Origin: a virus
Length of the DNA: 20,933 nucleotides
Strand: one strand, 5' to 3'
IMG/VR virus record: IMGVR_UViG_3300032156_000092
Coordinates: 1 to 20,933 of that record
The notes under the pieces are model-generated. The model made no database searches and had not been told where the DNA came from. It saw only the letters and a list, made by a program, of their open reading frames with translations. Position numbers and translations under genes: made by a program. This document shows positions 419 to 17,727 of this stretch, piece after piece. The first letter of the stretch is position 1; each line of letters starts with the position of its first letter.

Positions 419-2005
419 TCAAAGCACCAGCCGCAGCTCGGTCGTTGAGATCGCGACGCCAATTCCTCTATCATATACTGGGGTTGTCCCCAAAGTCCCA
501 TCAAACTGTAAAAAATATTTGCTGCCAGCTGTTAAACCAGACAAGCCCGCGACAACTGGGCCATAAGATACAGTGACGGATTGTCCTGCTGATCCGGACG
601 TCTTAGCGATACCAATTAGATTGTTGGGATTTTTAAAGATATTTCTTTTTGCGGATACCCACGTCCGATAAGAAGTATCTCCATTCTGGTAAAGGAAAAA
701 GGCAGTATGCGCTCCTTTTTCATAGTGAGCGATATGACCTGTAAAATAATTTTTAGTGCCTGAAAATTCGTGAATATTGTGAACATTTATAGTATTTCCT
801 ATTATATTTGCTGAGGTGTGGAAAATACCGCCGTTGGTGAGATCATGAAAACTAAACAGATAGAATCCGCCACCAAGAAATGAACCGAAAGGTTTTCGGC
901 CGACAGCGTCACTTTGCGCTGGGTTATTTAAATCAGCGATAGGCATCTGGTACGTAACTGTGGTCTCCGTGATGGTTGTCCCAGAAAAATCAACCAGGTC
1001 ATAAACAAGTCTGTAACCACTACTGGCATCTGCCCTACTAAAAAAAATCGCTCTTGTATCACTTATCCGCACCCCGGCGCAATCGCTTGAAACAACCACA
1101 CTTGTCATAACTTTTGCTGTCCCACAAGTAACGGTGTCTCCACTGACAGAAAATGCCGTCAAGTAACGATAAACCTGATCACTTACATCGTACCAAGAGA
1201 CAACAAACAAAGAATCTGTAATCCTTATATTGGCATTATTACATTCCACACCAGGCCCTCTGCCAGCGCTTACCACGCAAGTGTTTGCGCTACCAACAGC
1301 TGTTATTGTTGCGCCACTTAGTGTTAGGATTTTTACGAAAACTTGACCGCTGGCCTCGTTGTTCAGCACATAACAAAAAGCAGCCTTTGTCGCAGATAGC
1401 CCAACAACGCATCCTGAGGACACATCTCCCGAATATACCTGCGTTTGCGCGCCAAAGCTTGTGGATGCTGCGTTGGCTGTGACAATTGTAGCATACCAAA
1501 TGCCGTTAGAGCGATAACTACATATAGCTCTTGTATCGCTGACACGAGACATGGAGGCATTATAAACTGTAGCGTCCCTGCTCCATGTGGTACTGGCCAA
1601 AACTATAGGATTGAGATCTCCAGGTTTTTTTCGCATCCCATGCGTCCAAATATTACTGTATCTACCATAAAAAAGCAAACAGGTTTCATCGTTCAAGGCT
1701 ACGGCTGCAAGCGAACTACCAGCAGGTATAGTGTAGTCGCTGTTGTCTGGCGCGAAATACTTATTTAGGATTTCAAAGTCTCCGCAGTTCTCTTCCAAAT
1801 AAGCGTCCTCGGCGCCAGCACTTGTTAAAACAACTGGGCGCCCCGCAGTTACGCTTTTGCCAGTCGCTACCGTAAAACTGGCAGTTTGCTCTCCGCCTCC
1901 ACCAGCCACCTTATAAGTGCCATCATTTGTCAAAAAAGTGCTACCGTCTCCATCATCCGTCACTTTGCGCACCGCGGAAATATCTTTAATACGTTGATAA
2001 GCCAT
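419..2005 (-). CDS. tail fibre / receptor-binding protein with propeller-like repeats (528 aa)
   Basis: Probably a virion surface fibre. Residues 15-34 carry the short module GDGSTFLTNDGTYK, which recurs in the other fibre genes here. From about residue 150 to 450 a beta-rich pattern recurs roughly every 50-60 residues: near SDTRAICSYR (156-165), SATKAAFCYV (204-213), ITDSLFVVSW (262-271), ISDTRAIFFSR (314-324), GGGFYLFSFHD (378-388) and GAHTAFFLYQ (431-440). Each is followed by an aromatic strand, as in beta-propeller blades; six are visible. Residues 461-528 (IGIAKTSGSAGQSVTV ... LTAGSKYFL) look like a C-terminal module I associate with phage fibre proteins. An ATG start has AGGGAGG upstream. 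The gene follows a terminator-like hairpin. The sugar or protein it binds cannot be read from sequence. Confidence 0.75.
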   Translation of the reverse strand: MAYQRIKDISAVRKVTDDGDGSTFLTNDGTYKVAGGGGEQTASFTVATGKSVTAGRPVVLTSAGAEDAYLEENCGDFEILNKYFAPDNSDYTIPAGSSLAAVALNDETCLLFYGRYSNIWTHGMRKKPGDLNPIVLASTTWSRDATVYNASMSRVSDTRAICSYRSNGIWYATIVTANAASTSFGAQTQVYSGDVSSGCVVGLSATKAAFCYVLNNEASGQVFVKILTLSGATITAVGSANTCVVSAGRGPGVECNNANIRITDSLFVVSWYDVSDQVYRYLTAFSVSGDTVTCGTAKVMTSVVVSSDCAGVRISDTRAIFFSRADASSGYRLVYDLVDFSGTTITETTVTYQMPIADLNNPAQSDAVGRKPFGSFLGGGFYLFSFHDLTNGGIFHTSANIIGNTINVHNIHEFSGTKNYFTGHIAHYEKGAHTAFFLYQNGDTSYRTWVSAKRNIFKNPNNLIGIAKTSGSAGQSVTVSYGPVVAGLSGLTAGSKYFLQFDGTLGTTPVYDRGIGVAISTTELRLVL

Positions 2006-2026
2006 TTTTGTGCCTCCCTATAATTG

Positions 2027-2060
2027 AAAAATGGAGGAGAAGTTATCCTCCTCCTCCATT
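2027..2060 (-). terminator. intercistronic stem-loop, probable intrinsic terminator
   Basis: On the minus strand AATGGAGGAG pairs perfectly with CTCCTCCATT over 10 bp around an 11-base apical region, and a run of five T follows (2027-2031). It lies between the 419-aa fibre gene and the 528-aa propeller-like fibre gene, about 20 bases upstream of the latter's start. The position and T tract fit a factor-independent terminator or attenuator for minus-strand transcription. It could also act as an mRNA 3'-end stabiliser. Confidence 0.7.
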
Positions 2061-2078
2061 AACAAAATACCCTCAAAC

Positions 2079-3338
2079 TTACAGAATCACCCAATTTGTG
2101 CCGTCAGACATAATAGGATAACCCTCGTATTGTACAGATAAGACCAAAGTGGTCTCGCCATCAATCGTCTCGGTGCTATTTGGATCAACAGTGACGGTTT
2201 TGGCCTCGTCGCTATTAACTTTTTTAATTTGATATACGCGACCTGCACAACTAGCAGCCGCTGGCAAATAAATCACAAAGCTGGCTGAGGAGGCATCTGC
2301 CAACACTACGTGATGGCTTGCTCCTAAAGTAGTCTCACCAGTAACTGCGGCGTGCTTGTAGCCGATAGCTCCACCAAACACAGTATCTCCGCCGTCAGGT
2401 TGAATACTAACTGTTCCTTTGGTTGCGTTGCTAGTAGAGGTAATAGAGAGGTCGTCTCCACTTGCAGTGCCTCCAGTGATTGATTGCCCACCAGATTTAC
2501 CAGTTGCAAGGTCAACAGTTACTGTCCCAGTGGTATTGGTAAGACCAGTAGAGATGGTCAAAGCCGATTGTTTACCGTTAAAGGTTGTCCAATCCGTGCT
2601 TGATAGATAACCACCTTGACTACCGCTTGCTGCCTTAACTTCAATCGTGGCTGCTGTCAATAAAGCAGTAGCTCCGCCAGTGCTAATCGTCAACACAGAC
2701 GAGGTGGCCTCTGATAAGCCAGCCGGGGTAATTGAGGCTTGCTTGCCATTAAAGGTTGTCCAGTCAGCAGCACTTAAATAACCAGGTGTGGTTGAGCTCG
2801 ATGCGCTAACTGCAATAGTTACGCCTGTGCCAATAATTGCGCCAGTTCCACCAGATACGGTCAAAACAGAAGAGGTGGTCTCAGAAATATTACCTTTGCT
2901 TACGGTTGGCTCTTTTCCTGACAAAGCGGTAACTAAACCAGTAATATCGCTTGGTTCTAAGGTGACTGTGCCTGTCTTACTACAGACAGAGGCTACCTTG
3001 TCGGTATTGTCAATTTTATCCCATCCACCCGAGGTGCTGTAGGTCGCCCAATCTCCGATTTGGAAATCAACGGAATCAATAATCCCAGCTACGCTGATGA
3101 TATAATAATCTCCACTTGCTGGGGTTGCTGGGTATTCTTCATCTGAGGCATCCAATACACCTTTATAATTTAGACCACTAACCAAACTACCAGGGATTTG
3201 CGTTGCGGTTAATTTACCGCCACTATCCAGGGTAGCAACACCGCTATTTGCTCCTTTTTCTGACGCCGGGATCTTACCACTAAGAGCAGAGGTTAATCCT
3301 GTAACGTCACCAATTAGCCACCGTTTTTTGTAAGCCAT
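2079..3338 (-). CDS. repetitive tail fibre protein (419 aa)
   Basis: A low-complexity, Ser/Thr/Gly-rich fibre-type protein. Short ITGL-type elements at residues 10-22 (DVTGLTSALSGK) and 131-142 (DITGLVTALSGK) match the repeat of the neighbouring histidine-pair fibre. Two tandem copies of a roughly 54-residue unit (about 147-200 and 203-256) each end in DWTTFNGKQ after GYLS. The C-terminal 80 residues (VVLADASSA ... IKKVNSD ... SDGTNWVIL) align by eye with the C-terminus of the 321-aa fibre, suggesting a shared tip or trimerisation domain. The start is ATG with CGGAGG about 10 bases upstream. Unlike its neighbours it lacks the GDGSxFLxxDGTY module. The role is adsorption or virion decoration; the ligand is unknown. 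Confidence 0.75.
   Translation of the reverse strand: MAYKKRWLIGDVTGLTSALSGKIPASEKGANSGVATLDSGGKLTATQIPGSLVSGLNYKGVLDASDEEYPATPASGDYYIISVAGIIDSVDFQIGDWATYSTSGGWDKIDNTDKVASVCSKTGTVTLEPSDITGLVTALSGKEPTVSKGNISETTSSVLTVSGGTGAIIGTGVTIAVSASSSTTPGYLSAADWTTFNGKQASITPAGLSEATSSVLTISTGGATALLTAATIEVKAASGSQGGYLSSTDWTTFNGKQSALTISTGLTNTTGTVTVDLATGKSGGQSITGGTASGDDLSITSTSNATKGTVSIQPDGGDTVFGGAIGYKHAAVTGETTLGASHHVVLADASSASFVIYLPAAASCAGRVYQIKKVNSDEAKTVTVDPNSTETIDGETTLVLSVQYEGYPIMSDGTNWVIL
2571..2900 (-). repeat. tandem coding repeat of about 162-165 bp, two copies
   Basis: Two diverged copies encode a unit opening with S-E-x-T-S-S-V-L-T and ending GYLSxxDWTTFNGKQ (2739-2900 and 2571-2732). The strongest DNA match is around TTAAAGGTTGTCCA on the plus strand, present at both ends of the pair. 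It is a building block of the 419-aa fibre. Confidence 0.7.
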
Positions 3339-3376
3339 TTTTTGTAATCCTCCGTTTTATTTTTTTTTGAAAAAAC

Positions 3377-4342
3377 TTAGAATGCAGTCCATCCGACCCC
3401 GTCACTAATGATGATCACTGATTCGTCGCCTACTGTGAGCACCAAAGTGGATTCTCCATCAACAAGCTCAACCCCGGCAGGGTTAATAGTTACGACGTTT
3501 TCTGTTTCGTCAGTCTTTTTAATTTTGTATTCCAGGCCATCATTACCTACTGCCGTAGGGAGCTGTATTTCGCAATTGTTATTTGTGGTGTCGATTAAGA
3601 CAACACTATTTAACAGACTAACTACGTAAGTTTCGGAACTAGTGCGAGCTATATTTAAGCGGTGCACGTGGTTGGTCGCAGACTTACCAGCGAGAGCGTC
3701 TACTAATCCAGTGATTGCAGACATTAGATGGGTATGACTGGTCGCCGCCTTGCCTGCCAAGGCGTCTATTAGCCCAGTAATATCACTTTGGGCATGGGCA
3801 TGGGTTGTGGACGCTTTGCCCGCCAAAGTGGTAATTAGATCAGTAATATCATTTAAGATGTGATTGTGGGATGAGGCCGCTTTACCTGATAGAGCCGTTC
3901 CTAATCCAGATACCTCTTCAATCTCGTGCTCGTGATCCAAGGCGGCATAATCGGCGTCGTGATCGTGATCAGAGGTTGCTTTCCCTGATAAAGCCGTCTC
4001 TAATCCAGATACCTCTTCGATCTCGTGCTCGTGCCCCAAGGTGGCATATTCGGTGTCGTGGTCGTGCTCAACAGCAGCCTTTGCATCAATGACCGATTTT
4101 AAATCTGTTTGGAGCGCTAATGTGCCAGTAATCGTACCCCAGCTTGCTCCACCCTCAACTACACCTTTATAAGTCCCATCATTTGCCAGGAAAAGCGCAC
4201 CGTTGCCTTCATCCGTGATTGTGTCAATCAATTCTTTATTTTCGTGGTCGTGTTGCGGCACATCTTTATAAGTGCCATCATCAGAAAGGAAAAGGGAGCC
4301 GTCACCCGCTTTCTTGATTCGGTTGATAAAATAATTTCCCAT
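3377..4342 (-). CDS. histidine-pair tail fibre protein (321 aa)
   Basis: The protein begins with two copies of a GDG-type module (GDGSLFLSDDGTYK at 13-26 and GNGALFLANDGTYK at 46-59). Residues 89-154 hold two 33-residue repeats and residues 155-220 three 22-residue repeats, each ending ALSGK or LAGK. Nine HxH pairs occur (H31, H93, H104, H126, H137, H159, H181, H203, H225, each with its partner two residues on). In trimeric fibres such as the T4 gp37 tip, HxH pairs from three chains coordinate a metal ion; that is family knowledge applied here by inference. Residues 245-321 resemble the C-terminus of the 419-aa fibre. The start is ATG with AAGGAGGAG upstream. Confidence 0.8.
   Translation of the reverse strand: MGNYFINRIKKAGDGSLFLSDDGTYKDVPQHDHENKELIDTITDEGNGALFLANDGTYKGVVEGGASWGTITGTLALQTDLKSVIDAKAAVEHDHDTEYATLGHEHEIEEVSGLETALSGKATSDHDHDADYAALDHEHEIEEVSGLGTALSGKAASSHNHILNDITDLITTLAGKASTTHAHAQSDITGLIDALAGKAATSHTHLMSAITGLVDALAGKSATNHVHRLNIARTSSETYVVSLLNSVVLIDTTNNNCEIQLPTAVGNDGLEYKIKKTDETENVVTINPAGVELVDGESTLVLTVGDESVIIISDGVGWTAF
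3683..4078 (-). repeat. in-frame tandem repeats: 2 x 99 bp and 3 x 66 bp
   Basis: Codons for residues 89-220 of the 321-aa fibre form two 99-bp units (sharing HEHEIEEVSGL) followed by three 66-bp units (sharing SDITGLIDALAGK-like ends). The two 99-bp copies keep long identical DNA runs, for example the CTAATCCAGATACCTCTTC stretch on the plus strand, so they look recently duplicated. The 66-bp units look like the 99-bp unit with one 11-residue block removed. Unequal recombination could change the copy number. Confidence 0.85.
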
Positions 4343-4360
4343 CCTAATCTCCTCCTTCTT

Positions 4361-4543
4361 TTAAATCAAAATGCTAACTATGATAGCCAGGATCGAGACG
4401 AAAAAAGACCCAACCGCAACAGTGCGCGACACAAAATCCTTAGAGACCTTGTCTTTGGTCTCCAACGCGACTAAGCGCTCTGCAACTTGATCTAATTTAT
4501 CTTCGATCCTAATGAGGGCTTGATGCAGTAAGCTGTCATCCAT
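4361..4543 (-). CDS. small membrane protein, XhlA/holin-accessory-like (60 aa)
   Basis: Residues 1-30 form a charged amphipathic or coiled-coil helix (heptad-like LIRIEDKLDQVAERLVAL). Residues 40-60 are one strongly hydrophobic C-terminal segment (VAVGSFFVSILAIIVSILI) suited to a single membrane span. This layout is like XhlA-type haemolysin/holin accessory proteins and some phage holins. No sequence motif proves it. It sits between two fibre genes, about 18 bases from each, with an ATG start and GGGAGGG upstream. A membrane anchor with no role in lysis is the main alternative. No endolysin is visible in the window. Confidence 0.55.
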   Translation of the reverse strand: MDDSLLHQALIRIEDKLDQVAERLVALETKDKVSKDFVSRTVAVGSFFVSILAIIVSILI

Positions 4544-4561
4544 AACCGACCCTCCCTATTG

Positions 4562-6031
4562 TCAAATAGTGATATTGTGGACTATGGTAGCCAGTGGAGC
4601 ATCTATCGCAGTGGTCGCCCCAGAGATAATGTTGTTTATAATTAAGATATCGACGATAACGAGAGCTGGATAATCCATATAAATTCCGTAATCGTTAGGG
4701 GAACTATTTGACATAGATATAACATTGCCAGCAATTAAACACTGGAAAATGGCGCCGGTAGTATCCTGATCCCAACCGTACACCCCTTTTGCAAAACATC
4801 CATAAAATAAATTGTTTCTAATTAGTATGTTATAGCTTACTTTTGGTAGGGTTATGCTTCCTGGGCCATCTTGAACGCCCGCTAAATAACTGCAACCAGA
4901 CAAAATCGCGTGTTTTACAATATAGTTTGACTGGGCGTTGCTTTGAAGAAAACTTCCTGTCTGGCCACTAAAAATAACGTCTTTTACAATGATACGGCTA
5001 ACTAGGTATTCCGATATCATCGCCAAAGTGCAGTTTTTAATTATAATAGCCTCCGAAGAGCTGGTGGATATGCTACTACTAGAGATACTTTGGACGAGAG
5101 AATTTACAACAGAATTTACAACCCCGCCAAAAGAATAACTAAACCGAACACGACAGTCGCAAGAATCCCTAACTTTTATTTGCGTGCATTTATAAAAATT
5201 CATACAAATGCTACTTGCAGAAGTTATTGAAATGTTTACCGAAGAATTAAATTCTATGTACTTATCACGCGTGCTAGTCAACCCAATGATTTCAATATTC
5301 TCGCAATAATTTAATTGTTCATAAACGGGTACGGGAGAAGACCCACCGTCTTCCAGTATGCGATCAACATAAACTTTCGAAGAAGATATTTTTAAAATCT
5401 TGTAGGCCCTGTCTTTAGCAAAGCAGATGAGGTCTCCTACCGCAAGAAAAAAAGACGAAAGGGTGATATATTTATCCCCGAGGTGACCCGTTCCTGTTCC
5501 GCAATAAAATTCGCTCGATGGCTGAAATTGAAAAATGTAGGAGGCGGCGGCTGTAGTAAAAACGGCATCCAGATGGCAAATTATCCGACAGTTTTTGAGA
5601 CCAGAAACGACGACGGTCTCAAAAACTTTATAAGTGCCTGCTGGAAAATAGATTGTCTTATTAGATCCTGCGTTTAAGATTGCGGAGATTGCCGCGGAAT
5701 CATTAGTTACCCCATCTCCTACGCAACCCGCCAACTTAGCGTTAACGTCGTACCATTCTTCAACAATGCCCTCAGGAGGCTCTTGATATACCCCGTTATC
5801 CGCCAAAAACAAAGAGCCGTCGCCATTACTAACCAGGGTATCTAACATAACCTTGTTGGCGTGATTATGGTTATCTATGTGGGTGTGGTCAGCCGTGGCA
5901 AGGGTTGCTCCATCAAGCAACCCGGCATCAATTAGCTGATCGTCTTTTAAGGCATCAAAATTATCACGGATCAAAATTGCTGAATCTGCGATGATATCAT
6001 CATTTTTCGGTCTGGTATTGTCAAAGGCCAA
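4562..6031 (-). CDS. tailspike-like beta-helix protein, second copy (489 aa, TTG start)
   Basis: Probable virion spike or depolymerase-type fibre. The N-terminus (AFDNTRPKNDD...) aligns with that of the upstream paralogue (AYNGNKPADDE...), as do the ALKDD, DAGLL, HTH/HNH and GDGSLFLADNGVY elements. Residues 96-111 (VNAKLAGCVGDGVTND) and the following IYFPAGTY are the usual opening of pectate-lyase-like right-handed beta-helices; short Ile/Asn/Val rungs follow to the end. The paralogue alignment and a GAGGAGG site 8 bases upstream point to the TTG at 6031 rather than an ATG at 6082, which has no good binding site and overlaps the previous gene by 38 bases. Catalytic residues cannot be assigned by eye. 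A perfect inverted repeat lies inside the gene. Confidence 0.78.
   Translation of the reverse strand: MAFDNTRPKNDDIIADSAILIRDNFDALKDDQLIDAGLLDGATLATADHTHIDNHNHANKVMLDTLVSNGDGSLFLADNGVYQEPPEGIVEEWYDVNAKLAGCVGDGVTNDSAAISAILNAGSNKTIYFPAGTYKVFETVVVSGLKNCRIICHLDAVFTTAAASYIFQFQPSSEFYCGTGTGHLGDKYITLSSFFLAVGDLICFAKDRAYKILKISSSKVYVDRILEDGGSSPVPVYEQLNYCENIEIIGLTSTRDKYIEFNSSVNISITSASSICMNFYKCTQIKVRDSCDCRVRFSYSFGGVVNSVVNSLVQSISSSSISTSSSEAIIIKNCTLAMISEYLVSRIIVKDVIFSGQTGSFLQSNAQSNYIVKHAILSGCSYLAGVQDGPGSITLPKVSYNILIRNNLFYGCFAKGVYGWDQDTTGAIFQCLIAGNVISMSNSSPNDYGIYMDYPALVIVDILIINNIISGATTAIDAPLATIVHNITI
5591..5626. repeat. perfect 12-bp inverted repeat inside tailspike gene
   Basis: GTTTTTGAGACC (5591-5602) and GGTCTCAAAAAC (5615-5626) are exact reverse complements separated by 12 bases. 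The mRNA would form a strong hairpin in codons for the KVFETVVVSGLKN region of the 489-aa spike. Its right arm ends four bases from the block that is identical with the other tailspike gene. A perfect stem of this length inside a coding sequence is unlikely by chance in a window of this size, but its function is unknown. Confidence 0.85.
5630..5746 (-). repeat. DNA blocks identical to the neighbouring tailspike gene (copy 1)
   Basis: Two stretches are identical to the upstream paralogue: 33 bp at 5630-5662 (matching 7224-7256) and 41 bp at 5706-5746 (matching 7300-7340). The DNA between them is diverged. They encode NKTIYFPAGTY and VNAKLAGCVGDGVTN, the entry to the beta-helix. Such islands in otherwise diverged genes indicate recent recombination or gene conversion and can serve as crossover points. 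Confidence 0.85.
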
Positions 6032-6046
6032 ACTTGCCACCTCCTC
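6029..6046 (-). promoter_or_regulatory. ribosome binding site deciding a TTG start
   Basis: GAGGAGG (6040-6046 on the minus strand) overlaps the TGA stop of the preceding tailspike gene and lies 8 bases before the TTG at 6029-6031. The geometry suggests translational coupling between the two spike genes and fixes the N-terminus of the second. Confidence 0.75.
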
Positions 6047-7625
6047 ACGTGATATTGTGATCAGTAATTGATCCCGTTCCATTATTAACTATAGGGTTGC
6101 CAGCGCTGTAATAATTGGTCTCCCTTGCGATATTTCCCACAACGATGGAATAGCTTGCAGTGCAATAAATTCCACTGTCTCCAGTTCTGCGGATACAATT
6201 TTCTTTTATAATATGCCCTTGTCCTGTGGCGTGGATTCCGTAGCCCATACATTCGTCAACAATATTTCCTGCAACTACGACACCTTTTCCAACTTCTGCT
6301 GATCCTACTATTTTAATAGCTTTTTGGTTGTGATCAGCTCCGCCATAGTTGATTATATTATCCTCAATAGTTGTCAAGTACGAATATTCAGAAAAGATTG
6401 ATGATCCCCGCATCCCCATAACGGTATTTGCAACTACTGAGCCCTTGACGCAATATTGCAAAAGTAAACCATCGATACCTAATAGATTGGTCGTAATTTC
6501 ACCGCTAATGTTGTTGCCTGTAACTTGATAGTTTTGACAATAGACCAATTTAATGGGGCAGGAGCAATTACCATAATACCCGTCATCTACAGTTACGCCG
6601 TGGCTCTCTCGGATATAGAGACCGTAGGGAGCAGCATTGGTATCCATCTCAGCAGGCAAAGTAAAGCTGTATCGAGGGACACTTACGTTTTTACATCCCT
6701 TTACGTAGAGCCCGCAAGTTTGCATTTCGTACACGTCAAAATCAGCATCGGCAACAGTTAACCCATCACATTGCACCACATTTATGCAAGCATAACTGGT
6801 ATTCGACGTGCCAGCCATATTTACGTCAATTCGCGGGGAAATAAATTCAATATTTTCAGATATTTCTGCGTTTAAATAGATTGACAGAACGGTATTGTCC
6901 GGGATTGCGATTGGCAATGAGCGATCTAGATAAACATTATATCCAACAATATTCAAGATTTTATAGATCCCTTGCGCCCAGGTATAACTGGACACTACAT
7001 AATCACCAATTGCATAACCAGTAATCGTGTTAACTGTAATATAGCTTTGCCCCAAAGGAGCAGTCACAGTTAACATCACGTTTTTTAAATAATCCCCGCC
7101 GTAAATCCTAATCCCTGACCTTCCGTTGCCAAGATTCGAGAAAGTAAGTTTAGCCGCTGGGTGGAAATAAAACCGAGCATTTTTTAACTTAGTAATCTCG
7201 ATACCGTAGGCGTAGGCGTCCAGATAAGTGCCTGCTGGAAAATAGATTGTCTTATTGGAGGCGTTCGCAAAAATATTATAAAGTGCGGTGTGATCGTTGG
7301 TTACCCCATCTCCTACGCAACCCGCCAACTTAGCGTTAACATCATATTGCACAGGTAGAGCAGGGGATAGATAGCTCCCATTATTAGCCAAAAACAACGT
7401 GCCCGATCCTGCATTTGTGACACTATCTAATAGGGTTTTGTTGGTGTGACCGTGTAATTCTGTGTGGGTATGTCCAGATGTGGCAAAATAAACGGAATCG
7501 TGCCCTTGGAGCAAGCCAGCATCAACTATCCGGTCGTCTTTAAGAGCTCTTTGGTTCTCGCGGATAACCCCAGGAACATCTGCTACTAATTCGTCATCGG
7601 CTGGTTTGTTGCCATTATAAGCCAT
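6045..7625 (-). CDS. tailspike-like beta-helix protein, first copy (526 aa)
   Basis: Residues 1-50 (AYNGNKPADDELVAD ... ALKDDRIVDAGLL) form a small conserved head, probably the tail-attachment part. HTHTELHGHT (52-61) carries histidine pairs, and GSGTLFLANNGSY (73-85) is the shared fibre module. VNAKLAGCVGDGVTND (96-111) and IYFPAGTYL (127-135) are typical of the start of pectate-lyase-like beta-helices. The remainder is rich in short strands with Asn and Gly turns (for example NNISGEI, NTVMGM, NIVDECMGYGIH), consistent with stacked rungs. Function is inferred to be host polysaccharide binding or cleavage. The ATG start has AAAGGAGG upstream, and that site can be sequestered by a hairpin. Confidence 0.8.
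   Translation of the reverse strand: MAYNGNKPADDELVADVPGVIRENQRALKDDRIVDAGLLQGHDSVYFATSGHTHTELHGHTNKTLLDSVTNAGSGTLFLANNGSYLSPALPVQYDVNAKLAGCVGDGVTNDHTALYNIFANASNKTIYFPAGTYLDAYAYGIEITKLKNARFYFHPAAKLTFSNLGNGRSGIRIYGGDYLKNVMLTVTAPLGQSYITVNTITGYAIGDYVVSSYTWAQGIYKILNIVGYNVYLDRSLPIAIPDNTVLSIYLNAEISENIEFISPRIDVNMAGTSNTSYACINVVQCDGLTVADADFDVYEMQTCGLYVKGCKNVSVPRYSFTLPAEMDTNAAPYGLYIRESHGVTVDDGYYGNCSCPIKLVYCQNYQVTGNNISGEITTNLLGIDGLLLQYCVKGSVVANTVMGMRGSSIFSEYSYLTTIEDNIINYGGADHNQKAIKIVGSAEVGKGVVVAGNIVDECMGYGIHATGQGHIIKENCIRRTGDSGIYCTASYSIVVGNIARETNYYSAGNPIVNNGTGSITDHNIT
7224..7340 (-). repeat. DNA blocks identical to the neighbouring tailspike gene (copy 2)
   Basis: This is the partner of 5630-5746: 33 identical bases at 7224-7256 and 41 at 7300-7340, encoding the same beta-helix entry motifs, with diverged DNA between. 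In this copy the flank lacks the 12-bp inverted repeat found beside copy 1. Confidence 0.85.
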
Positions 7626-7632
7626 AAATAGT

Positions 7633-7669
7633 CCTCCTTTGTCAGGAGGTGGGGCTATTTCCCCACCTC
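7633..7669 (-). promoter_or_regulatory. two mutually exclusive hairpins over the tailspike ribosome binding site
   Basis: Hairpin 1 (7646-7669) begins at the last base of the gpJ-like stop codon: GAGGTGGGG pairs with CCCCACCTC over 9 bp with a six-base loop, and no T tract follows. Hairpin 2 (7633-7649) pairs CCTCCT with AGGAGG around five bases, and its AGGAGG is the ribosome binding site of the 526-aa tailspike. Both use the CCTC at 7646-7649, so they cannot form together. When hairpin 1 forms the binding site is free; when hairpin 2 forms it is hidden. A regulatory role is inference. Confidence 0.55.
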
Positions 7670-10600
7670 TAAAATCCTTTTGCTTGCCAGTAAATAGTGC
7701 CCGCCACTAAATCGTCGTCTTCGTTGTATAGGTTACAATAAAAGTAATCGTAGCTCTCTAATCCAACTTCGGCTCTGAGCCCCACCCCAATAGGGGTAAC
7801 CTCCAGGTAGCCATTGTCATATTGCCCAGGAGGGAAGCGAAAAGAAATTGGGTAGATTACCCGGTTGCCATTTAATCCCAATGTGATGTTTGCGATACCT
7901 TGTTGCGCTAAATCTGGCACATCCAAAATAATCTCAAACCCAGTGACGATAGGGGTATCTATCCCATTGGCTGACGTCAAAGCTAATTTAACCTGTAGAT
8001 ATCTTGTCGTGATTGATTGGGCTATATAAGTTATCCAACTACCCCAACCTCCTGGCACATTAGCGGTGCGATAGGAGATAGTGTATCCAGTATTCGCTGG
8101 ACAGAAGATCTCACTATCAATCAAGAGACCGCAGGTGGTCACTACGGAGAGATCATAAGCCTCTGTAGTATAAGTGCCAGCAAAAGCCCCCTCGGTAAGT
8201 TTAATTGCAGACTGCATAGTGATCCAGGCGTCTCTGGTATAGTCCGATAAACGACCTCCTAAAGTGTCCATGTGAGCGTTACCTGCGGAAACGTAGGTAT
8301 TCACACAAGTTCCAGTAGGCTCAATGATCTCGTCCCAGCTACGGATAATATTTCGTATGTCAAGTTCAGTGACGATTATCTCGCAATCATCCGCAGTTAA
8401 ACTGCAAACTTTATCTACTGAGATTGACTTAATCCAAAAGTGATAAGTGCCGACTTCAAAAATGGGCCATTCAAAATGGTCGGTTGGGTCAGTAATTACC
8501 CCAACTTGGCTTCCGTTATCCCAGGTAGATCCCAATCTAATTTCGTACTTTGTAATATAATTAACTGTCGGATTAGTCCAACTTGCCACAAAATTGTTGA
8601 AATTTTGCACTACCTGAAAATCAGTAGGAGCGGGAGGAGCAATATTATCCACCCAGATTGTTTCTTCGTCCGAACCCACTTTTTTCCCGCTAATCAAATA
8701 GACTGTTTTTACGGTGTGATACCCTGCAGCAGTCAGATAGATTTTTGCAGGGTGGTCGTAATGCCCCAAAAAAACCCCATCAAAATAGACTTTAACGAGA
8801 TTTACAAGACCCACTTCTATCCAGTCAGCCAGGAGATAGTGTCCATCTACGTCTTCTGACTTGGTTAAAATTAACCCGCTACGAAATTCCATATCTTGAC
8901 TATAATTTATTTCGGGCACTGTGGCGTCATCAATATATACTTCCTCGATGTATTCCAAACAAGAGAGCTTCCGTCGAAAGTCTCCGTCTCTTGTGATGGA
9001 AACAACGCGGAAAGGTTTGGCTGACTTATCAACCTCACCAAAACTGTATAAGTAATCTGTTTGTGGTTCCAGCATAATTTCTGGAGGATCAACAATTTGA
9101 ATAAAGGCAGTGACTGTCTCTACACCTACACCTATAACCTCATGCGTCGCTAAAGTGTCCGTTATCTGATTTCTAATTGTGATCTCATAGTCGACGTCTG
9201 GTTGCAAAACTACGGTATTATCTAATTGGATACCGTCAACAGTCGAATAAGCAATTCTGCCTCCGATTGCCCACTTGGGCACATCGTGCTGTACTAAAAT
9301 AACATCTCCTACTTGGCAAGCGATTGCGTCAACATCAGCCGAAAAACTAATTGTGCGCAAGAGATATTTATTTAATCTTAATCGATACAAGGCTTCCCGG
9401 TAAGCGTGGTTAAAATCAGTGATCCCGTCAAGGTTAACTGTTGCTGTTCTGGTATCTGATGCATCGTAATCCTCAGTTGTTAGGAAGAAGATATCTCTTT
9501 CGTAATTTTTGTCCTCGCTGTAAAAAGTTACCTCTACCGCATTACTTCGGCTCTCATCTGATAAAAAAGTCTCGCTAAAACTACCAGCAATGATATTTGC
9601 AGAAGTAAACAATTGCACTGGGTCTGCTGTTCCATCCCAAATACAGCTAAATTTCGTGCCTTTGATAACAACCTTGCCTCTGCCAGTTGATTCTGGTGTT
9701 TTTAAAGCGTCCCAGAGATTTCCATAAACATCACAAATCCAATTAATCACACAGCGCTTAATGATTACTTCTTCGCCTTCTACTAACACTTCGACTTCTT
9801 CGTCGCAGAAAGTTGACCAGTCACTAAAAGACTGAAAATCTACGTTGTCGGTGGAGATTCCCTCTGTTTCATAAACCCAAGCTGACGTATTAATATTGTA
9901 TAAATGCTTTATTCTGCAGATTAAATCATAAGCGCACCAGGCAGGATTGGAGGCGTCTTTTTCCTGGTATTCGTCATCATCGGGATTCCATACCCACACC
10001 TTGCTTCTGGTTTGCTCCCAGGTAACGTTAGGTACTGAGCCATTTAAATCTTCTGTGGCTAACGCAGACATTCCTAACAAGATTTTATTTTGCCGTACTA
10101 AAACCTCACCCATTCGCGCGTTAAATTCTTGGTAATAACAAGTGGAACGGTTGGTAAAGTTAGGGTCAGGAAACCAGAAGTGATTTTCGTAAACTTCGCG
10201 ACACATTACCCTTACGTCGTAAGCGTCTAAAGCCAAATCTTCAACGTGCGCTTTCAGGGTAAAAGCTGATTCCGTTGCTCCTAAAGTATACCAGCGACCC
10301 TCGCTATCACTATAGACAGGGTATTGCGGAGGGGTTGCGGGTCGAGCCATCCAAGGATAGCAGGTATCAATAGACCCGTCCCAAGTGAGCTTATGCCAAT
10401 CATTAGCATCCTTTACGCTGTATTCTCCGTCAAATTTCATTGAGATCGAGAATTTCCCCGCTCCATAACAAGTCCAAGCTCCAGCAGGAAAATTTAAAAC
10501 TACCTCTAAGTCGCTAACCGCATTACCAGTTGTGGTTTTATTTACCCAGACCCCGACAGGGTCAACATCATTATTTGGATTATCAAGCTGGACGTTAGGA

Positions 10601-11373
10601 TATTGACTTTGCCAGAAACCGTCAGATATCTCCAAAAAGCTCTGGTCATTGAGACCAGCTCTTTTGTATATGGTAATTCCTGCAAATTCATCAATATCTG
10701 TATCGTTAATTTTAATACTTGCTATCCCCGTACAGTTGCTATCTTCTCCGTTACCTGTATAATCACAAGGCCCTTCTCCGCCACAAATAACCATATTTAG
10801 TTTTTGTGTTCCGCTGGTATAGACGCGCTGATAAACCAGTTGTCCAGCTGTTCGCCTTGTCCCATAAGTTATCGGCAAAGGATTCCCTTGACCTGTCAAA
10901 GTGGACAAAGGAGACCATCCATTGGCTGAAGAGGAGATGTTATTTTCAGTGAGGGGTTGTTCCGCCAGCATATATCTATTTATTAAATAATTTCCACCTG
11001 CAGCCATTAGACCAGCCGCTAAATAAGATGCGGCACCCCAGCCAGCCATACCAATAAAGCCAGCTCCCATAAAAGCTCCCCCAGCAAACACAGAGCCTAC
11101 CCCCATTGTTACGATGGTTAGGGCTACTGCCGCAAGGACGCCTACTACTTTTTTATTGGTATCTGAACCTCCACTGATTACTGGTCTACAAAGCACAAAA
11201 TCTCCTTCAGCGGGGATAAAATCACCAACAACAACTTTTCCGTTCACGGTGACTAACCAGTCTTCGGGATTTTCGATGCCTGCTAATTCATATACCCCTT
11301 GTCCGTTCAATTCTTTTTGGTATACTTGCTTGCTTGAGCTAAATGGATTCAGGATCTTTGTAACCGTGAGCAA
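7669..11373 (-). CDS. gpI-gpJ fused tail tip / host specificity protein (1234 aa)
   Basis: Forms the distal tail tip and central fibre. Residues 1-65 look like a small beta-grasp domain (VTVNGKVVVGDFIPAEGDFV), and residues 75-135 are long, glycine-rich and hydrophobic. QGNPLPITYG (162-171) corresponds to the lambda gpI C-terminus (QGNVLPVLYG in gpI). From about 190 onward the protein follows gpJ-like architecture: glycine/cysteine-rich GGEGPCDYTGNG, tail-hub beta domains, and a fibronectin type III-like domain around 905-990 (PPAPTDFQVV ... VASWTNP). Its length is near the sum of lambda gpI and gpJ, supporting a fusion. It starts at TTG with AAGGTGA about 4-5 bases upstream, 4 bases after the NlpC gene. 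The C-terminal part should contact the receptor. A hairpin follows the stop. Confidence 0.85.
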   Translation of the reverse strand: MLTVTKILNPFSSSKQVYQKELNGQGVYELAGIENPEDWLVTVNGKVVVGDFIPAEGDFVLCRPVISGGSDTNKKVVGVLAAVALTIVTMGVGSVFAGGAFMGAGFIGMAGWGAASYLAAGLMAAGGNYLINRYMLAEQPLTENNISSSANGWSPLSTLTGQGNPLPITYGTRRTAGQLVYQRVYTSGTQKLNMVICGGEGPCDYTGNGEDSNCTGIASIKINDTDIDEFAGITIYKRAGLNDQSFLEISDGFWQSQYPNVQLDNPNNDVDPVGVWVNKTTTGNAVSDLEVVLNFPAGAWTCYGAGKFSISMKFDGEYSVKDANDWHKLTWDGSIDTCYPWMARPATPPQYPVYSDSEGRWYTLGATESAFTLKAHVEDLALDAYDVRVMCREVYENHFWFPDPNFTNRSTCYYQEFNARMGEVLVRQNKILLGMSALATEDLNGSVPNVTWEQTRSKVWVWNPDDDEYQEKDASNPAWCAYDLICRIKHLYNINTSAWVYETEGISTDNVDFQSFSDWSTFCDEEVEVLVEGEEVIIKRCVINWICDVYGNLWDALKTPESTGRGKVVIKGTKFSCIWDGTADPVQLFTSANIIAGSFSETFLSDESRSNAVEVTFYSEDKNYERDIFFLTTEDYDASDTRTATVNLDGITDFNHAYREALYRLRLNKYLLRTISFSADVDAIACQVGDVILVQHDVPKWAIGGRIAYSTVDGIQLDNTVVLQPDVDYEITIRNQITDTLATHEVIGVGVETVTAFIQIVDPPEIMLEPQTDYLYSFGEVDKSAKPFRVVSITRDGDFRRKLSCLEYIEEVYIDDATVPEINYSQDMEFRSGLILTKSEDVDGHYLLADWIEVGLVNLVKVYFDGVFLGHYDHPAKIYLTAAGYHTVKTVYLISGKKVGSDEETIWVDNIAPPAPTDFQVVQNFNNFVASWTNPTVNYITKYEIRLGSTWDNGSQVGVITDPTDHFEWPIFEVGTYHFWIKSISVDKVCSLTADDCEIIVTELDIRNIIRSWDEIIEPTGTCVNTYVSAGNAHMDTLGGRLSDYTRDAWITMQSAIKLTEGAFAGTYTTEAYDLSVVTTCGLLIDSEIFCPANTGYTISYRTANVPGGWGSWITYIAQSITTRYLQVKLALTSANGIDTPIVTGFEIILDVPDLAQQGIANITLGLNGNRVIYPISFRFPPGQYDNGYLEVTPIGVGLRAEVGLESYDYFYCNLYNEDDDLVAGTIYWQAKGF

Positions 11374-12735: not shown

Positions 12736-12767
12736 AAAATAGGAGCTCCTGGGGCAACCAGGAGCTC
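12736..12767 (-). terminator. intercistronic stem-loop after the tape measure gene
   Basis: GAGCTCCTGG pairs perfectly with CCAGGAGCTC over 10 bp around a five-base loop (12743-12767), followed by CTATTTTG. The stem is strong but the T tract is short, so it may be a leaky terminator or an mRNA-stabilising hairpin. It begins about 8 bases after the tape measure stop. Confidence 0.6.
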
Positions 12768-12774
12768 ATTCTCG

Positions 12775-15700
12775 CTACATTGATTTGAGCAGGTCTCCTA
12801 AACCTTGCTTATTACTTGCAACTGCGTCTATCACGACACCTACTATATAGTCTCCTCCATTAACCTGAGGAGCGCTGGTCTTAGCTTTGATTTCTTGCCC
12901 GCTATTGTTTTCTATATTTATTACAAAATTGGGGGGTTGATTATTTACCGTTACATTAGGAGCTCCAAAGCCAGGCTGCTTAATTTGACTATTAGGGATA
13001 ATCTTTCCTGTCATACTGGGGATAAAGATTTCTGGGCCTCTTTCGCCAACTAAATAGGGTTTGCGTTCTGCAACAGGGCCTCCTGAAGCTCTAGCCCCAG
13101 AGATACCTGTTATTGCTCCAGCAACGGCTGGGCTTTCGCTTGCTGCCCCTCCAGCAAATCCAGTGACAGCTTTAAAAATTAACCATTTGGTCATCATCTG
13201 CAAAAGCATTTCAGAAAAATCCTTCAAGATTTGCACTGCGATATTTTTTAAAGTTGTTTGTAGATTTTTAAAGATGTCTTTTTGCTTATCTGCCGATTCT
13301 TGCCGTATAGAATCTGCTTGTTTATTAAATTCCATTTCAGCTTCAGTGGCACTTTTGCCCAAAGCCATTTGGTCTTTGATAAACTGCTCTTTTTTGGCGT
13401 AGAATTCTTCCAATGCCAAAGTCGCTTCTTGGGAAGCTCTGACTGAATCCATAAAGTAATCTACGGGGGCAGAGATTAACCCGCTTAAAGCTGACCCTAT
13501 ACTATCACTAACCACCTGGGATGCTGTTTTGATAGTGTCTGACCAGTTTTTTACTGCCATACTGGCCATTTCCCAAGGGGTTGGGTCTTGTATTAATCGA
13601 TAGTAATTTTCAATGTCCACAGTAGAGAGACCCATAGTTTCAGCTCGCATAAGAGCTTCTTGCTTTTCTATTTCTATTAGCTCGTTTTTCGTTAAAATTA
13701 ATTCATCCATTTTGTCAGTGTAGCTTTTGTAAAAGTTGGTAATTTCTCGCTCGCTATTATTTAAAATTTGTTTACGTTTGTTTTCTGAGCTAGCCAAAAA
13801 ATCAATTTCTTCTTGACTTGATTCTCCGAATTGCTTTTGAATTTCGTCTATTTTGTTGGCTCTCTCGTCCATTAAGTTTTGTAAGTCCTGGGTTCTTTTT
13901 GCGTAAATGTTTTCGATTCCTTCATAATTACCGCTGGCGTCAAATTCAAACGTAGAATTGCGTAAATCATTGGCAAGATCCCGATGGATAGACTTTAAGT
14001 TCTCTGCGTGCTGTTTATTGACGTCAGTTTCCTTATTTCTGAAGGTTTCATTGATTAAATCCAAAGCCTCTTTTAGCTTAGTCGCGTCTGTTATTTTATC
14101 TTTGGCGTCACTGATTGCATCAAGGCGTTCTTGATCAAGCACTTTTAATCTTAGTAATCTCTGCTCTTCCAGGTTGGTGGTGATATCTAACTGTGATTGC
14201 AACAGGTTCTTCTTCCAATTTTCCAGGAATTCGCGCTGTTGTCTAAGTTTTGCCTCTATGTCATCTCCGCCACCACTATCAATGATAGTTCCCAGATCTA
14301 TTGTCAATTCATACTTCGCCAGCTCTGCTAAGGCAGCCTTACGTTTTTTAGCTAACGCCTCAATCAATGACGTTACTAATTCTGTTTGTGGCACAGAGAG
14401 CTTTTTGGCGTTCAGCAAACGCTGGAATCGCTCGATGCCGTCCTCATATCCGGATATCTCCTGACCCAAAAAGTTCTGCATCTCCATAGTTTCTTTCTGC
14501 TTCATCTGCTCATCAACTATTTTTTTCGCTTCTTCTATAGTTTTCCCTTGCCTAATAGCTTCCGCGATCAAGATTTGTCTTTTTTCGTCAAGAGCTTTCT
14601 TGATTTGTTCTAATTTAGACTTATTATTCTCTTTTGTTTGACGGTTCGCAAGGATCTGTCGTTCAATCTCCCGTTGCATCTCTTTTTGATCTAATTTAAG
14701 CAGTGCTTTGTCTTTCTCTGCATCAATTTTCTTACGAGCCGCGATTTCTTCTTTTGATAATTCTTTCAGGTTTTCAATGGTTGCCTTTGTATTATGATCA
14801 CGCATAGACTTTTCCCAGTTTTCAACATTTTTGTAAGCTTCATTTCCTTGTTGCTCCACGGAGGCGTATGCGTCATCCAAAACCGTACCTTTAAAGCGAA
14901 AATTGAATTCTTTGACAACCTCTTTTCCCGCCAGGTCGTTTATTTTCTTGGCTAGCCAATTGTATCCTTCAAAAATATTATTCAGAATCTGCACAAAGGC
15001 CTGCGGGATTAAATTAAATGTGGCAATAATTAACTTAGTTAGCCCAAAAGTAGCCCAAACAAAAGCTTTTGCGAGACCTCCTACTGCGGAGATAGAGAGG
15101 TCATACATTGCTCCCAACATAAACTGCCAAGCAGACAATGTGGCTTTTTTAATCACTGCGAAAGCGCCCTGTATACCAGCGGAGGTATTAACCAACATTC
15201 TCTCAATGCCGATAGAGATAGCATCCCAATTAGACAGCACATATTTAAAAGTATCTATTGCGATCATTACCATTCCGACCCAGCCAAGGATAGACATAAA
15301 AACAGTCGCTACCGTTCGACCAACGGAGGCGATTGCTACACCTACGGTCTTGGCTGTAGATCCGACTGCGCTAACAGTAGATTTCCAAGCATTTCGTGTC
15401 GCTGTGGCTAAAAATGTTTGCTGCGTGTTAATAATGCCGCCTTGCTGAATCTGGGCGACCTTACACCTCAATATCTCCTGTTCTGTTTGCAACACTTGCC
15501 TATCGAGCCTGACGTATTCCTTCCGTAAATTGTTAAGGATACTTTCCTCCTTGGCTTTATCTTTGTAAACATTGTTGCCGAGAAAGTCCGTTTCTACACC
15601 AAAAAAGGAAGTTTTTCTTAACCCTTTCACCATTTTAGCTTGTTCATTTATGGCTAAGTTCCGCTCTGCTCTTAGTTTTCTTGTAGTCGCGAGCTGTTGC

Positions 15701-17004
15701 TTTAATTGCGCCTCTTGCTCCGCTGCATTTAATTTTGCTTGGTTCGCTGTTGCCATAGTCTCTCTTGCTTCGCCTTTTGCAGCAGACACCGCATTTTGCG
15801 TATTTTTTAAAGATAATAGAGCGAGGCCCAATTTTCCCGCTTCTTGCTTGGCGTTGCGGAGAGATGCCGCAAGCGTCAAGAGAGAAATATTTATTTGTTC
15901 GCCTTGACCACGCAACATCCCCAGATACCCTCCTGCACCTCGCAGGGCAATGATCAGGAGACCAACAGCTACGGCGACACCAACTGCTCCCTCGTTTGCC
16001 GATTGGAATAATTTAACAAGCGGGACGAAAGCAGCCACTTTTGCCAATACACCAAACAAACCCCCAAAAGATTCGGTTAATTTTTGGATCAGCACCATTA
16101 CACCAAGCACAGCTGTGCCAATAGTGCCAGCGGGCATCATTTTTTCAAACGCCTTCTGAAAGCCTTTTTTATTCATCAGGGCATTAAAAGTCTCAAGGAA
16201 ATTATTTATTCTCAACAAGATACCTTTTAAATCAATCGCCTGGACAATTGCTAATCCAATTCCAGACATACTAATTTTAATATTATCTCTTAGCGTGCTC
16301 AGTCGCCCTTCGATCGTTACTGATTGCTTCTGCATTCCTCCGAAAAATTTGGGGTCTTCCTGCACCGCGTCTATAATTGACCTTAGCGCTTTTGAGGCAG
16401 AGATAGCCCCTTTTTCGATCTGTCTCGACCAATTCTTGCCAAAGTCTCGATTGAAGATTTCTGCAATGTTAATACCAGCTTCCGCGAACATTCGAACTTC
16501 TTCCATTGAGATTCTACCTATAGCTTTGACTTTTTCAAAAGCATAAGCCATCCGGTCGAGGCCTTCTTGTCCTGAGCCTAGGGCAGAAGTAGCGTTCCCG
16601 AATACAGTCATAATTGGGATAGTCGATTCCAACTTAAAACCAAAAGCCAATAACTTACGCTGGGTGTCAGCTAACCCATTGAATTCGAAGGGGGTAACTG
16701 CAGCAAATTGCTTTAGATCTTTGATGTTTTGTTTGGCGATGCTTGCAGATCCAGTTAGATTTGTAAAAGCTACCGTTAATTGTTCTGTTCTCGCGGTAGC
16801 GGAAATGGCTTCCTTTACAAAAGCACCCATACCAACAACAGCGGAAATGAACCCCATACCCAACAGTCTCGCTTGGTAAAAAGTGGCAGAAGTCTTCTGG
16901 TTAACTTTGTTCAGACTATCTTGGACTTTACCCAACTGCTGGTTAAATTTGGTAGCATCGATGGAAACATTTGCATATAGGTCTGCAATTAATGTGCGGA
17001 TCAT
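12775..17004 (-). CDS. tail tape measure protein (1409 aa)
   Basis: Sets tail length and is ejected with DNA. Residues about 45-65 hold a hydrophobic helix, and about 70-185 a tape-measure N-terminal domain (ARTEQLTVAFTNLTGSA ... FGNATSALGSG ... ISMEEVRMFAEAGI). Several hydrophobic stretches follow in the first half, then long charged coiled coils (Lys/Glu/Gln-rich, about 400-530 and 740-1170). Near the C-terminus SGGPVAERKPYLVGERGPEI (1307-1326) is the signature common to tape measure C-termini. At about 0.15 nm per residue the tail would be near 210 nm; this uses the general ruler rule and is not seen directly. The ATG start has AGGAGGAG upstream. It follows the frameshifted chaperone gene, as expected. 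Confidence 0.95.
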   Translation of the reverse strand: MIRTLIADLYANVSIDATKFNQQLGKVQDSLNKVNQKTSATFYQARLLGMGFISAVVGMGAFVKEAISATARTEQLTVAFTNLTGSASIAKQNIKDLKQFAAVTPFEFNGLADTQRKLLAFGFKLESTIPIMTVFGNATSALGSGQEGLDRMAYAFEKVKAIGRISMEEVRMFAEAGINIAEIFNRDFGKNWSRQIEKGAISASKALRSIIDAVQEDPKFFGGMQKQSVTIEGRLSTLRDNIKISMSGIGLAIVQAIDLKGILLRINNFLETFNALMNKKGFQKAFEKMMPAGTIGTAVLGVMVLIQKLTESFGGLFGVLAKVAAFVPLVKLFQSANEGAVGVAVAVGLLIIALRGAGGYLGMLRGQGEQINISLLTLAASLRNAKQEAGKLGLALLSLKNTQNAVSAAKGEARETMATANQAKLNAAEQEAQLKQQLATTRKLRAERNLAINEQAKMVKGLRKTSFFGVETDFLGNNVYKDKAKEESILNNLRKEYVRLDRQVLQTEQEILRCKVAQIQQGGIINTQQTFLATATRNAWKSTVSAVGSTAKTVGVAIASVGRTVATVFMSILGWVGMVMIAIDTFKYVLSNWDAISIGIERMLVNTSAGIQGAFAVIKKATLSAWQFMLGAMYDLSISAVGGLAKAFVWATFGLTKLIIATFNLIPQAFVQILNNIFEGYNWLAKKINDLAGKEVVKEFNFRFKGTVLDDAYASVEQQGNEAYKNVENWEKSMRDHNTKATIENLKELSKEEIAARKKIDAEKDKALLKLDQKEMQREIERQILANRQTKENNKSKLEQIKKALDEKRQILIAEAIRQGKTIEEAKKIVDEQMKQKETMEMQNFLGQEISGYEDGIERFQRLLNAKKLSVPQTELVTSLIEALAKKRKAALAELAKYELTIDLGTIIDSGGGDDIEAKLRQQREFLENWKKNLLQSQLDITTNLEEQRLLRLKVLDQERLDAISDAKDKITDATKLKEALDLINETFRNKETDVNKQHAENLKSIHRDLANDLRNSTFEFDASGNYEGIENIYAKRTQDLQNLMDERANKIDEIQKQFGESSQEEIDFLASSENKRKQILNNSEREITNFYKSYTDKMDELILTKNELIEIEKQEALMRAETMGLSTVDIENYYRLIQDPTPWEMASMAVKNWSDTIKTASQVVSDSIGSALSGLISAPVDYFMDSVRASQEATLALEEFYAKKEQFIKDQMALGKSATEAEMEFNKQADSIRQESADKQKDIFKNLQTTLKNIAVQILKDFSEMLLQMMTKWLIFKAVTGFAGGAASESPAVAGAITGISGARASGGPVAERKPYLVGERGPEIFIPSMTGKIIPNSQIKQPGFGAPNVTVNNQPPNFVINIENNSGQEIKAKTSAPQVNGGDYIVGVVIDAVASNKQGLGDLLKSM

Positions 17005-17044: not shown

Positions 17045-17727
17045 CTAATCCTTCTTTTTCTTCTTCTTCCCGTTTCCTGACCAAACCTTCAGAAAGTTTT
17101 TAATCTCCGTAGGGTCTGTTAAAACTTGATCAACTGATTCTTGATGCATTGGTTTATTTTTGTTTTCTTTTTCATAAGCCCTACTTTCCAAAAGTTTGCA
17201 ATAATGACTTCTTGGAGGCAGGCAGCTAAACAATATCCAAAATCTACTTGAAGGCAGATTGTTTTTCGCTAAATCAATTTGGTATACATCTAAAAAAGAA
17301 CAATAGATAGATGACCAATCGCTTAAAATGTCGTCCAGTGTGATCTCTATTCCACTGGATTCAGTGCGTTTGGGTCAGTTTCTTGCTCCTTGTTTTTGGC
17401 TTCCGCAATCTCTGTAAGTTGCTGGGAAACCCAGGAGGCGATGCTAAATAACTGGGTATCAGTAGCTCCCTTTTCTTTCCAGTTTTCATAAGTTTCTTTG
17501 CCGACGAGCTCCCTGAGAACCCAGAGCAGATAATCGACCATCGAATCTTCGTTTTCGCTAATGATAACTTCTCGGCTTTTGCGTTCCATTTTTAAAGCTA
17601 CACGAATGTCAATATCCGTATTGATTTTTACTGTCTCTCCTAAGAAGGTGATTTCAATAATATCTTTTTCTTTCTGTGCGTCGTCTGCCATAAGTTGGTC
17701 GAAATCTTGAAATCTTCTGTTAATCAT
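17045..17727 (-). CDS. tail assembly chaperone, gpGT-like -1 frameshift product (227 aa)
   Basis: A ribosomal -1 slip at CCCAAAC (17368-17374) near the end of the 126-aa chaperone gene would join its first 120 residues to a second frame that is open without interruption to 17045, adding 107 residues. The extension starts RTESSGIEITLDDILSDW and ends in a lysine-rich tail (GNGKKKKKKD). In lambda and most siphoviruses such G-T products bind tape measure and tail tube protein during assembly. The second frame has no good start of its own, which supports frameshifting. The product ends 40 bases before the tape measure start. The joined product is inferred; the slippery site and open frame are directly visible. 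Confidence 0.85.
17335..17374 (-). promoter_or_regulatory. programmed -1 frameshift site with downstream stem-loop
   Basis: In the chaperone frame GAC CCA AAC contains C_CCA_AAC (17368-17374), an exact X_XXY_YYZ heptamer. Nine bases downstream CCAGTG (17353-17358) can pair with CACTGG (17335-17340) over 6 bp, with the zero-frame TAG stop inside the 12-base loop. A second, competing 5-bp hairpin (CACTG/CAGTG) starts one base after the heptamer. Either could stall the ribosome. Confidence 0.82.
17347..17727 (-). CDS. tail assembly chaperone, gpG-like (126 aa)
   Basis: The unshifted product, expected to be the abundant form. It has a small beta-rich N-terminal part (DIIEITFLGETVKINTDIDI), then a helical domain (ALKMERKSREVI ... 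DYLLWVLRELVGKETYENW ... SWVSQQLTEIAEAKNK). This composition and the position between the major tail protein and the tape measure are typical of the family; sequence identity within it is low, so the call rests mainly on context and the frameshift signal. The ATG start has a weak GGGGG upstream, unlike the strong sites elsewhere in the operon. Confidence 0.85.
   Translation of the reverse strand: MINRRFQDFDQLMADDAQKEKDIIEITFLGETVKINTDIDIRVALKMERKSREVIISENEDSMVDYLLWVLRELVGKETYENWKEKGATDTQLFSIASWVSQQLTEIAEAKNKEQETDPNALNPVE

Follow-up and report, generated by a model that had tools for sequence, protein, structure and literature searches.

The junction between the gpJ-like tail tip gene and the first tail-spike gene of this virus holds a perfect 9-bp hairpin that starts within the gpJ stop codon. 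Judging from the sequence, we lean modestly towards reading this hairpin as an insulator of the ribosome termination structure (RTS) type, with its overlap with the spike ribosome site probably being incidental or a mild form of tuning. The stems, their predicted stability, their fit to the published definition of an RTS and an association with gap length among kin are what we observed, and from these we infer both the insulation and the incidental character of the overlap.

The window, that is the whole stretch of 20,933 nt that was analysed, is virus record IMGVR_UViG_3300032156_000092. Its minus strand bears a tail module with L-like and NlpC/P60 proteins, a gpJ-like tip, two beta-helix spikes and more fibre genes, and the long ORF at 12775-17004 was taken as the tape measure gene from its size and place. 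The gpJ-like gene matches PHROG 31 'central tail fiber J' (E 1e-87) and Pfam Phage-tail_3 (E 1.5e-14), and spike gene 1 matches Pfam Beta_helix (E 3e-9) and Pect-lyase_RHGA_epim (E 3e-8). From the gpJ stop (TAG, 7671-7669) to the spike ATG at 7625 there is a gap of 43 nt. The two genes and the elements between them are as follows:

7669..11373, minus strand: gpJ-like tail tip gene, TTG start, TAG stop at 7669-7671
7661..7669, minus strand: stem 1 5' arm, GAGGTGGGG, from sequence and fold; begins at the G of the TAG stop
7655..7660, minus strand: stem 1 loop, AAATAG, from sequence
7646..7654, minus strand: stem 1 3' arm, CCCCACCTC, from sequence and fold; shared with stem 2 over its last four bases (7646-7649)
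7644..7649, minus strand: stem 2 5' arm, CCTCCT, the complement of the ribosome site, from sequence
7639..7643, minus strand: stem 2 loop, GACAA, from sequence
7633..7638, minus strand: stem 2 3' arm, AGGAGG, which is the spike Shine-Dalgarno (SD) sequence, from sequence; 7 bases to the ATG
6045..7625, minus strand: tail-spike gene 1, with an N-terminal anchor common to the spikes of kin followed by a right-handed beta-helix

An earlier note on this DNA had proposed that the two stems share four bases, that only one of them can form and that a ribosome finishing gpJ would favour the second, as a translational switch that might set the spike:tip ratio. The geometry in this proposal was borne out. 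The stem at the gpJ stop has nine perfect pairs (7669-7646) and starts inside the stop codon itself, the stem over AGGAGG has six perfect pairs (CCTCCT(gacaa)AGGAGG, 7649-7633, minus strand), and CCTC at 7649-7646 is common to both. Stem 1 is a real feature and more than chance: a perfect stem of at least 9 bp arose in 0.1% of 20,000 dinucleotide shuffles of the stop and gap, and stems of 9 bp or longer with at least six G/C pairs were expected 0.04 times on the minus strand of the window (200 shuffles), where two distinct ones were observed. Stem 2 taken alone could be partly chance. With the ribosome site held fixed, 1.8% of shuffles had CCTCCT upstream of it in full, and 13% had five of the six bases. 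The surrounding 101 nt have an unremarkable folding energy (z -1.2, with 20 of 200 shuffles folding equally well) because the signal is local, and an Rfam scan gave one sub-threshold match, located elsewhere.

The claim that only one stem can form did not hold. Predicted energies are -18.9 kcal/mol for stem 1 alone and -10.1 kcal/mol for stem 2 alone. Mixed states that combine the inner 5-8 bp of stem 1 with 6-3 bp of stem 2 have -18.1 to -18.5 kcal/mol, within 0.8 kcal/mol of stem 1 alone, and the boundary between the stems slides. Stems 1 and 2 are not the mutually exclusive structures of a two-state switch.

In a synthetic E. coli operon, structure close to the stop lowers re-initiation (Chemla et al., 2020, PMC7518266); the natural function of an RTS is so far speculation according to the same authors. 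The passages of that paper that define an RTS ask for a next gene that lies at least 25 nt away or on the other strand, for at least five consecutive 40-nt windows, opening from -10 to +20, in which the native sequence is more stable than permuted ones, and for one or more of these windows to reach -6 kcal/mol or below (PMC7518266). A review reports that structure just past the stop correlates with less coupling (PMC12548453). The gap of 43 nt in the junction studied here exceeds the 25 nt of the definition, all 31 of its windows are more stable than permuted sequences (mean difference -8.3 kcal/mol, 40 permutations), and the minimum energy is -18.9 kcal/mol. The junction is like an RTS as defined in those passages in that a stable structure stands right after the stop in a gap of at least 25 nt, with an energy far below the threshold of -6 kcal/mol and the next gene on the same strand (PMC7518266). 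Unlike the cases described there, it lies in a phage tail operon and is known here from sequence and predicted folds, and its 3' arm overlaps the complement of the next gene's ribosome site, which is no element of the definition as given in those passages (PMC7518266). Our literature search found no paper linking 'ribosome termination structure' with phage, nor a relevant phage-tail case. Other long gaps in the window also qualify by this definition (19967 to 19900, 18428 to 18303, tape measure to 12720 and 2079 to 2005). Two long gaps, 3377 to 3338 and 17347 to 17004, failed it, and the gap from 17347 to 17004 is mostly a probable frameshift extension.

Single-sequence searches found no kin among viral contigs with the gpJ, spike or tape measure protein, among genome contigs with gpJ, or among phage records with the spike or the 18428 gene; gpJ had only distant matches (<60% identity) in phage records. 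Kin were reached through an alignment of distant gpJ proteins, which gave viral loci (best 80 of 449 kept), and through a tighter gpJ alignment, which gave 42 genome loci and further viral loci (best 80 of 204 kept). Titles of the genome loci include Pelosinus, Sporomusa, Veillonella, Massilibacillus and Succiniclasticum, all of which we take to be Negativicutes. The gpJ stop lies within the locus in 131 of the 173 kin entries. The anchor domain of the window's spike begins the gene after gpJ in at least 18 kin, which with the window makes 19 junctions. These 19 post-gpJ junctions came from 35 anchor-domain matches, 16 of them labelled by script and three (L100, L134 and L197) assigned by hand; L186 is identical to L106, and L103 and L104 are near copies that were both counted.

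The gaps of the 19 gpJ-to-spike junctions are 2 to 78 nt long. Four of these junctions (the window, L102, L106 and L183) have a clear hairpin at the stop, with differing sequences, and the remaining 15 have none; sequence conservation across these homologous junctions was seen for neither stem 1 nor stem 2. Eight of the nine junctions with gaps of at least 25 nt qualify as an RTS, a lenient definition by which L008, L098, L132 and L153 pass without a clear stop hairpin, and structure was found in none of the ten with shorter gaps. Part of this association with gap length is trivial, since a hairpin needs space. Comparing gaps below and above 25 nt more widely (530 and 339 pairs, from the window and the kin listed), we found a difference in post-stop folding bias with p 9e-21, under a simplified criterion that lets 35-47% of short gaps through as well. 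Ahead of the ribosome site, hairpins of -8 kcal/mol or lower occurred in 74 of 281 gaps of 25-120 nt, compared with 16 in shuffles (window and kin listed), in a survey where loci are partly redundant and genes were called by a simple script.

In the mechanism that we propose, stem 1 would be a stop-proximal intergenic hairpin of the RTS type that stands at the leading edge of the ribosome ending gpJ. It would hinder this ribosome from sliding on and re-initiating, and the spike gene would thereby be insulated and would rely for its start on new ribosomes recruited by its own strong AGGAGG. Being C-rich and ending in CCTC, the 3' arm of stem 1 is able to trade pairs with the ribosome site. This trading probably lowers spike initiation mildly, and it would more likely be a side effect than a selected switch. 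The comparison suggests that the tail operons of a phage group in several Negativicutes follow the RTS rule, which was stated for bacterial genomes. It also suggests that two such hairpins at a phage junction can be told apart as a recurrent stop hairpin and a site-covering stem that so far looks incidental.

A rather unlikely alternative is an attenuator-like switch, in which a ribosome on the gpJ stop would cover the 5' arm of stem 1 and free CCTCCT to pair with AGGAGG. The spike site would then be closed until stem 1 reforms, and translation of gpJ would hold the spike down. We modelled SD access in an 81-nt RNA (SD = AAGGAGG) with the stop and the next nine bases held single-stranded to represent the terminating ribosome. 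Mean SD access in the window fell from 0.62 in free RNA to 0.15 with these bases masked, a drop matched in 16 of 1000 cases when the stretch before the SD was shuffled. The masked length follows an assumed size of the ribosome footprint, which counts against the switch, as does the brief time for which a ribosome rests on a stop codon. The earlier idea that a ribosome ending gpJ favours stem 2 stands for the window in this folding model, but only one of eight testable kin behaves alike. Among the nine gpJ-to-spike junctions with the SD outside the footprint, two close on masking (the window and L106, from Succiniclasticum, 0.42 to 0.02), two open (L008 and L096) and five barely change (L098, L102, L132, L153 and L183), with L134 omitted from the access figures for having no ribosome site in its gap and L183 scored on a 3-base match. 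Access in L102 barely changes (0.05 to 0.07) because its SD is closed in both states. Over 302 gaps from the window and the kin listed, eight close and seven open by at least 0.35, a balance with no preferred direction that argues against a switch. A translational role of the junction hairpins for the spike gene is plausible. As for a translational switch, the layout and the logic of the model held up, but the stems are not exclusive and most of the testable kin junctions barely respond.

The strongest comparative point for the switch idea is a predicted layout with a shared arm. When G-U pairs are counted, an SD-covering stem has four bases in common with the 3' arm of the stop hairpin in the window, four in L102 and six in L106, which makes three of the four junctions with a clear stop hairpin; L183, the fourth, has no such layout. 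The spike anchors of L102 and L106 are similar, and these two junctions may not be independent. Against the switch, 21 of 77 gap hairpins had a 3' arm that reached -6 kcal/mol or lower in pairing with its own SD region (G-U pairs allowed, scored by energies), and permuted SD regions gave a mean of 21.3. Any C- or T-rich arm fits an SD. In the same 77 hairpins, the numbers of arms pairing with the SD at -6, -7 and -8 kcal/mol were 21, 16 and 11 for 3' arms and 13, 7 and 4 for 5' arms, and this excess of 3' arms, growing at -8 kcal/mol, could hint at weak selection for overlap. With Watson-Crick pairs only and a narrow window for the ribosome site, SD-complementary 3' arms numbered 4 of 74 and 5' arms 1 of 74.

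The same double layout was also found in an unrelated lineage. A pattern made from the sequence of stem 1 matched 34 stretches of other viral contigs, 24 of them after an ORF stop (a hand count that includes some copies). With a pattern made from the stem 1 3' arm and stem 2 there were 25 matching stretches, and in four of these the double layout precedes a different gene. Kin of that gene gave 12 loci, the four included, and ten were examined, with L269 and L270 left out for lack of the N-terminus. All ten junctions have a stop-proximal hairpin. The CCTCCT/AGGAGG stem is present in four, the same four that were found by searching for that stem, and it is absent from the six others, which retain the stop hairpin; this counts against the switch. 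Three distinct sequences of this lineage have the shared-arm layout, which is a point for the switch, and masking lowers their SD access from 0.17-0.21 to 0.01, a small effect because the site is already closed.

An alignment of 22 columns from seven of the ten junctions, six of them distinct, was used to look at covariation. Its register was set by hand around the loop and leans towards structure; in it pairing holds for 94% of cells, and covariation scored 0.41, higher than in all 500 shuffles and every slid version. Both sides change at three of nine pairs, a number reached by 149 of the 500 shuffles. When the sequences were aligned with MAFFT, the helix fell out of register and RNAalifold gave only three pairs of the stop hairpin and four of the second hairpin. 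Covariation as a check on the stems was thus divided, with compensatory changes in the stop hairpin of the unrelated lineage but a site-covering stem in only a minority of its junctions. Since the stop hairpin is present throughout with compensatory changes and stem 2 is not, the stop hairpin appears to be kept and the site-covering stem to be variable. In L264 (88-136), also of this lineage, the CCTCC with which AGGAG can pair lies just downstream of it, between the ribosome site and the ATG, and not upstream.

A joint claim of wider reach is that a stop-proximal hairpin has its C- or T-rich 3' arm recruited as a mobile anti-Shine-Dalgarno, a form of 'negative translational coupling', in this phage, in its Megasphaera/Succiniclasticum prophage relatives and in the unrelated phage lineage. 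We regard this as quite unlikely. If it were true, translating one structural gene would transiently repress the next. As a comparison, the window resembles the cases of coupling by RNA unfolding covered in part of a review (f1 VII-IX, MS2 coat-lysis and rpmI-rplT) in having a coverable downstream site near the upstream stop; unlike in these cases, where the first gene opens the second, the model for the window predicts closing (PMC12548453). A ribosome on the gpJ stop would close the spike site because the covering stem lies beyond the masked stretch. The opposite layout was seen at the gpJ-to-spike junction of L008 (15486-15530), where the 5' strand of the SD-covering stem begins 6 nt past the stop, so that a ribosome there would open the site (0.28 to 0.66), resembling classical positive coupling. 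The trp leader and the erm leaders are ribosome-controlled attenuators with alternative hairpins, and the window is like them in its order of segments (1:2 or 2:3, with the ribosome covering segment 1). Unlike them, the window has no identified leader peptide or sensing codons, its stems are not exclusive and its response is not common to most kin.

Another possibility, which we judge unlikely, is static tuning. The stems would exchange pairs freely, the site would always be partly covered, and the spike yield would be lowered by a fixed amount with no response to gpJ. The isoenergetic mixed states and the mean SD access of 0.62 in the free 81-nt RNA are consistent with this. Stem 2 alone could achieve the same without the 9-bp stem 1, and no common set-point is seen because free access across kin junctions spans 0.02 to 0.84, both of which speak against it.

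It is very doubtful that the hairpin is a transcription terminator or attenuator, or a stabiliser of RNA ends, that lowers or processes transcripts beyond gpJ. The hairpins of L102 and L106 stand at the same place, are followed by seven T in eight bases and look like intrinsic terminators, the L183 hairpin ends in TTTT within its arm, and a terminator-like hairpin lies upstream of two L142 spike copies. Stem 1 of the window is followed by one T in the next eight bases, too few for the T run of an intrinsic terminator, and a terminator scan of the window did not list it; what the scan listed at this junction was the short stem 2, whose tail is poor. In L142, the two anchor-domain spike copies (1373-1450 and 15362-15439) each follow a terminator-like hairpin with a T run.

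Recoding, in which the stem in the stop codon would stimulate a +1 shift at TTT TAG or read-through to give a gpJ-spike fusion, is highly improbable: the spike frame of the window runs open through the gap and beyond the gpJ stop, and TTT TAG would permit a one-base slip, as such sites slip, but the spike frame relative to gpJ is not kept in kin (0, 1 or 2) and in 12 of the 19 junctions is closed before it gets beyond that stop, the spike has its own strong ribosome site, and in-frame read-through reaches TGA after eight codons.

Elsewhere on the minus strand of the window, a perfect 10-bp hairpin (GAGCTCCTGG/CCAGGAGCTC, 12743-12767) lies 7 nt past the tape measure stop and ahead of the 12720 gene. 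A 13-pair hairpin with a T run (AATGGAGGAGGAG/CTTCTCCTCCATT, 2030-2060) follows the 2079 stop, and its 3' arm contains CCTCC, complementary to GGAGG of the next gene.

Several of the spike and fibre proteins encoded at 419-6082 (minus strand) carry, by eye, variants of one short motif (like GDGSLFLADNGVY, GDGSLFLSDDGTYK and GDGSTFLTNDGTYK), of which a script pattern picked up only one copy. These variants suggest shared modular linkers. An HNH/AP2 homing-endonuclease-like gene (17746-18303, minus strand) sits between the 18428 and 17347 genes, and it is preceded by a 124-nt gap with very strong post-stop structure (-19.1 kcal/mol). Near the end of gene 17347-17727, the slippery sequence CCCAAAC (17374-17368, minus strand) marks a candidate programmed -1 frameshift (17045-17374). 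The -1 frame after CCCAAAC is open to about 17045 and fills most of the 342-nt 'gap' before the tape measure gene, an arrangement that we presume to resemble the gpG/gpGT tail chaperones.
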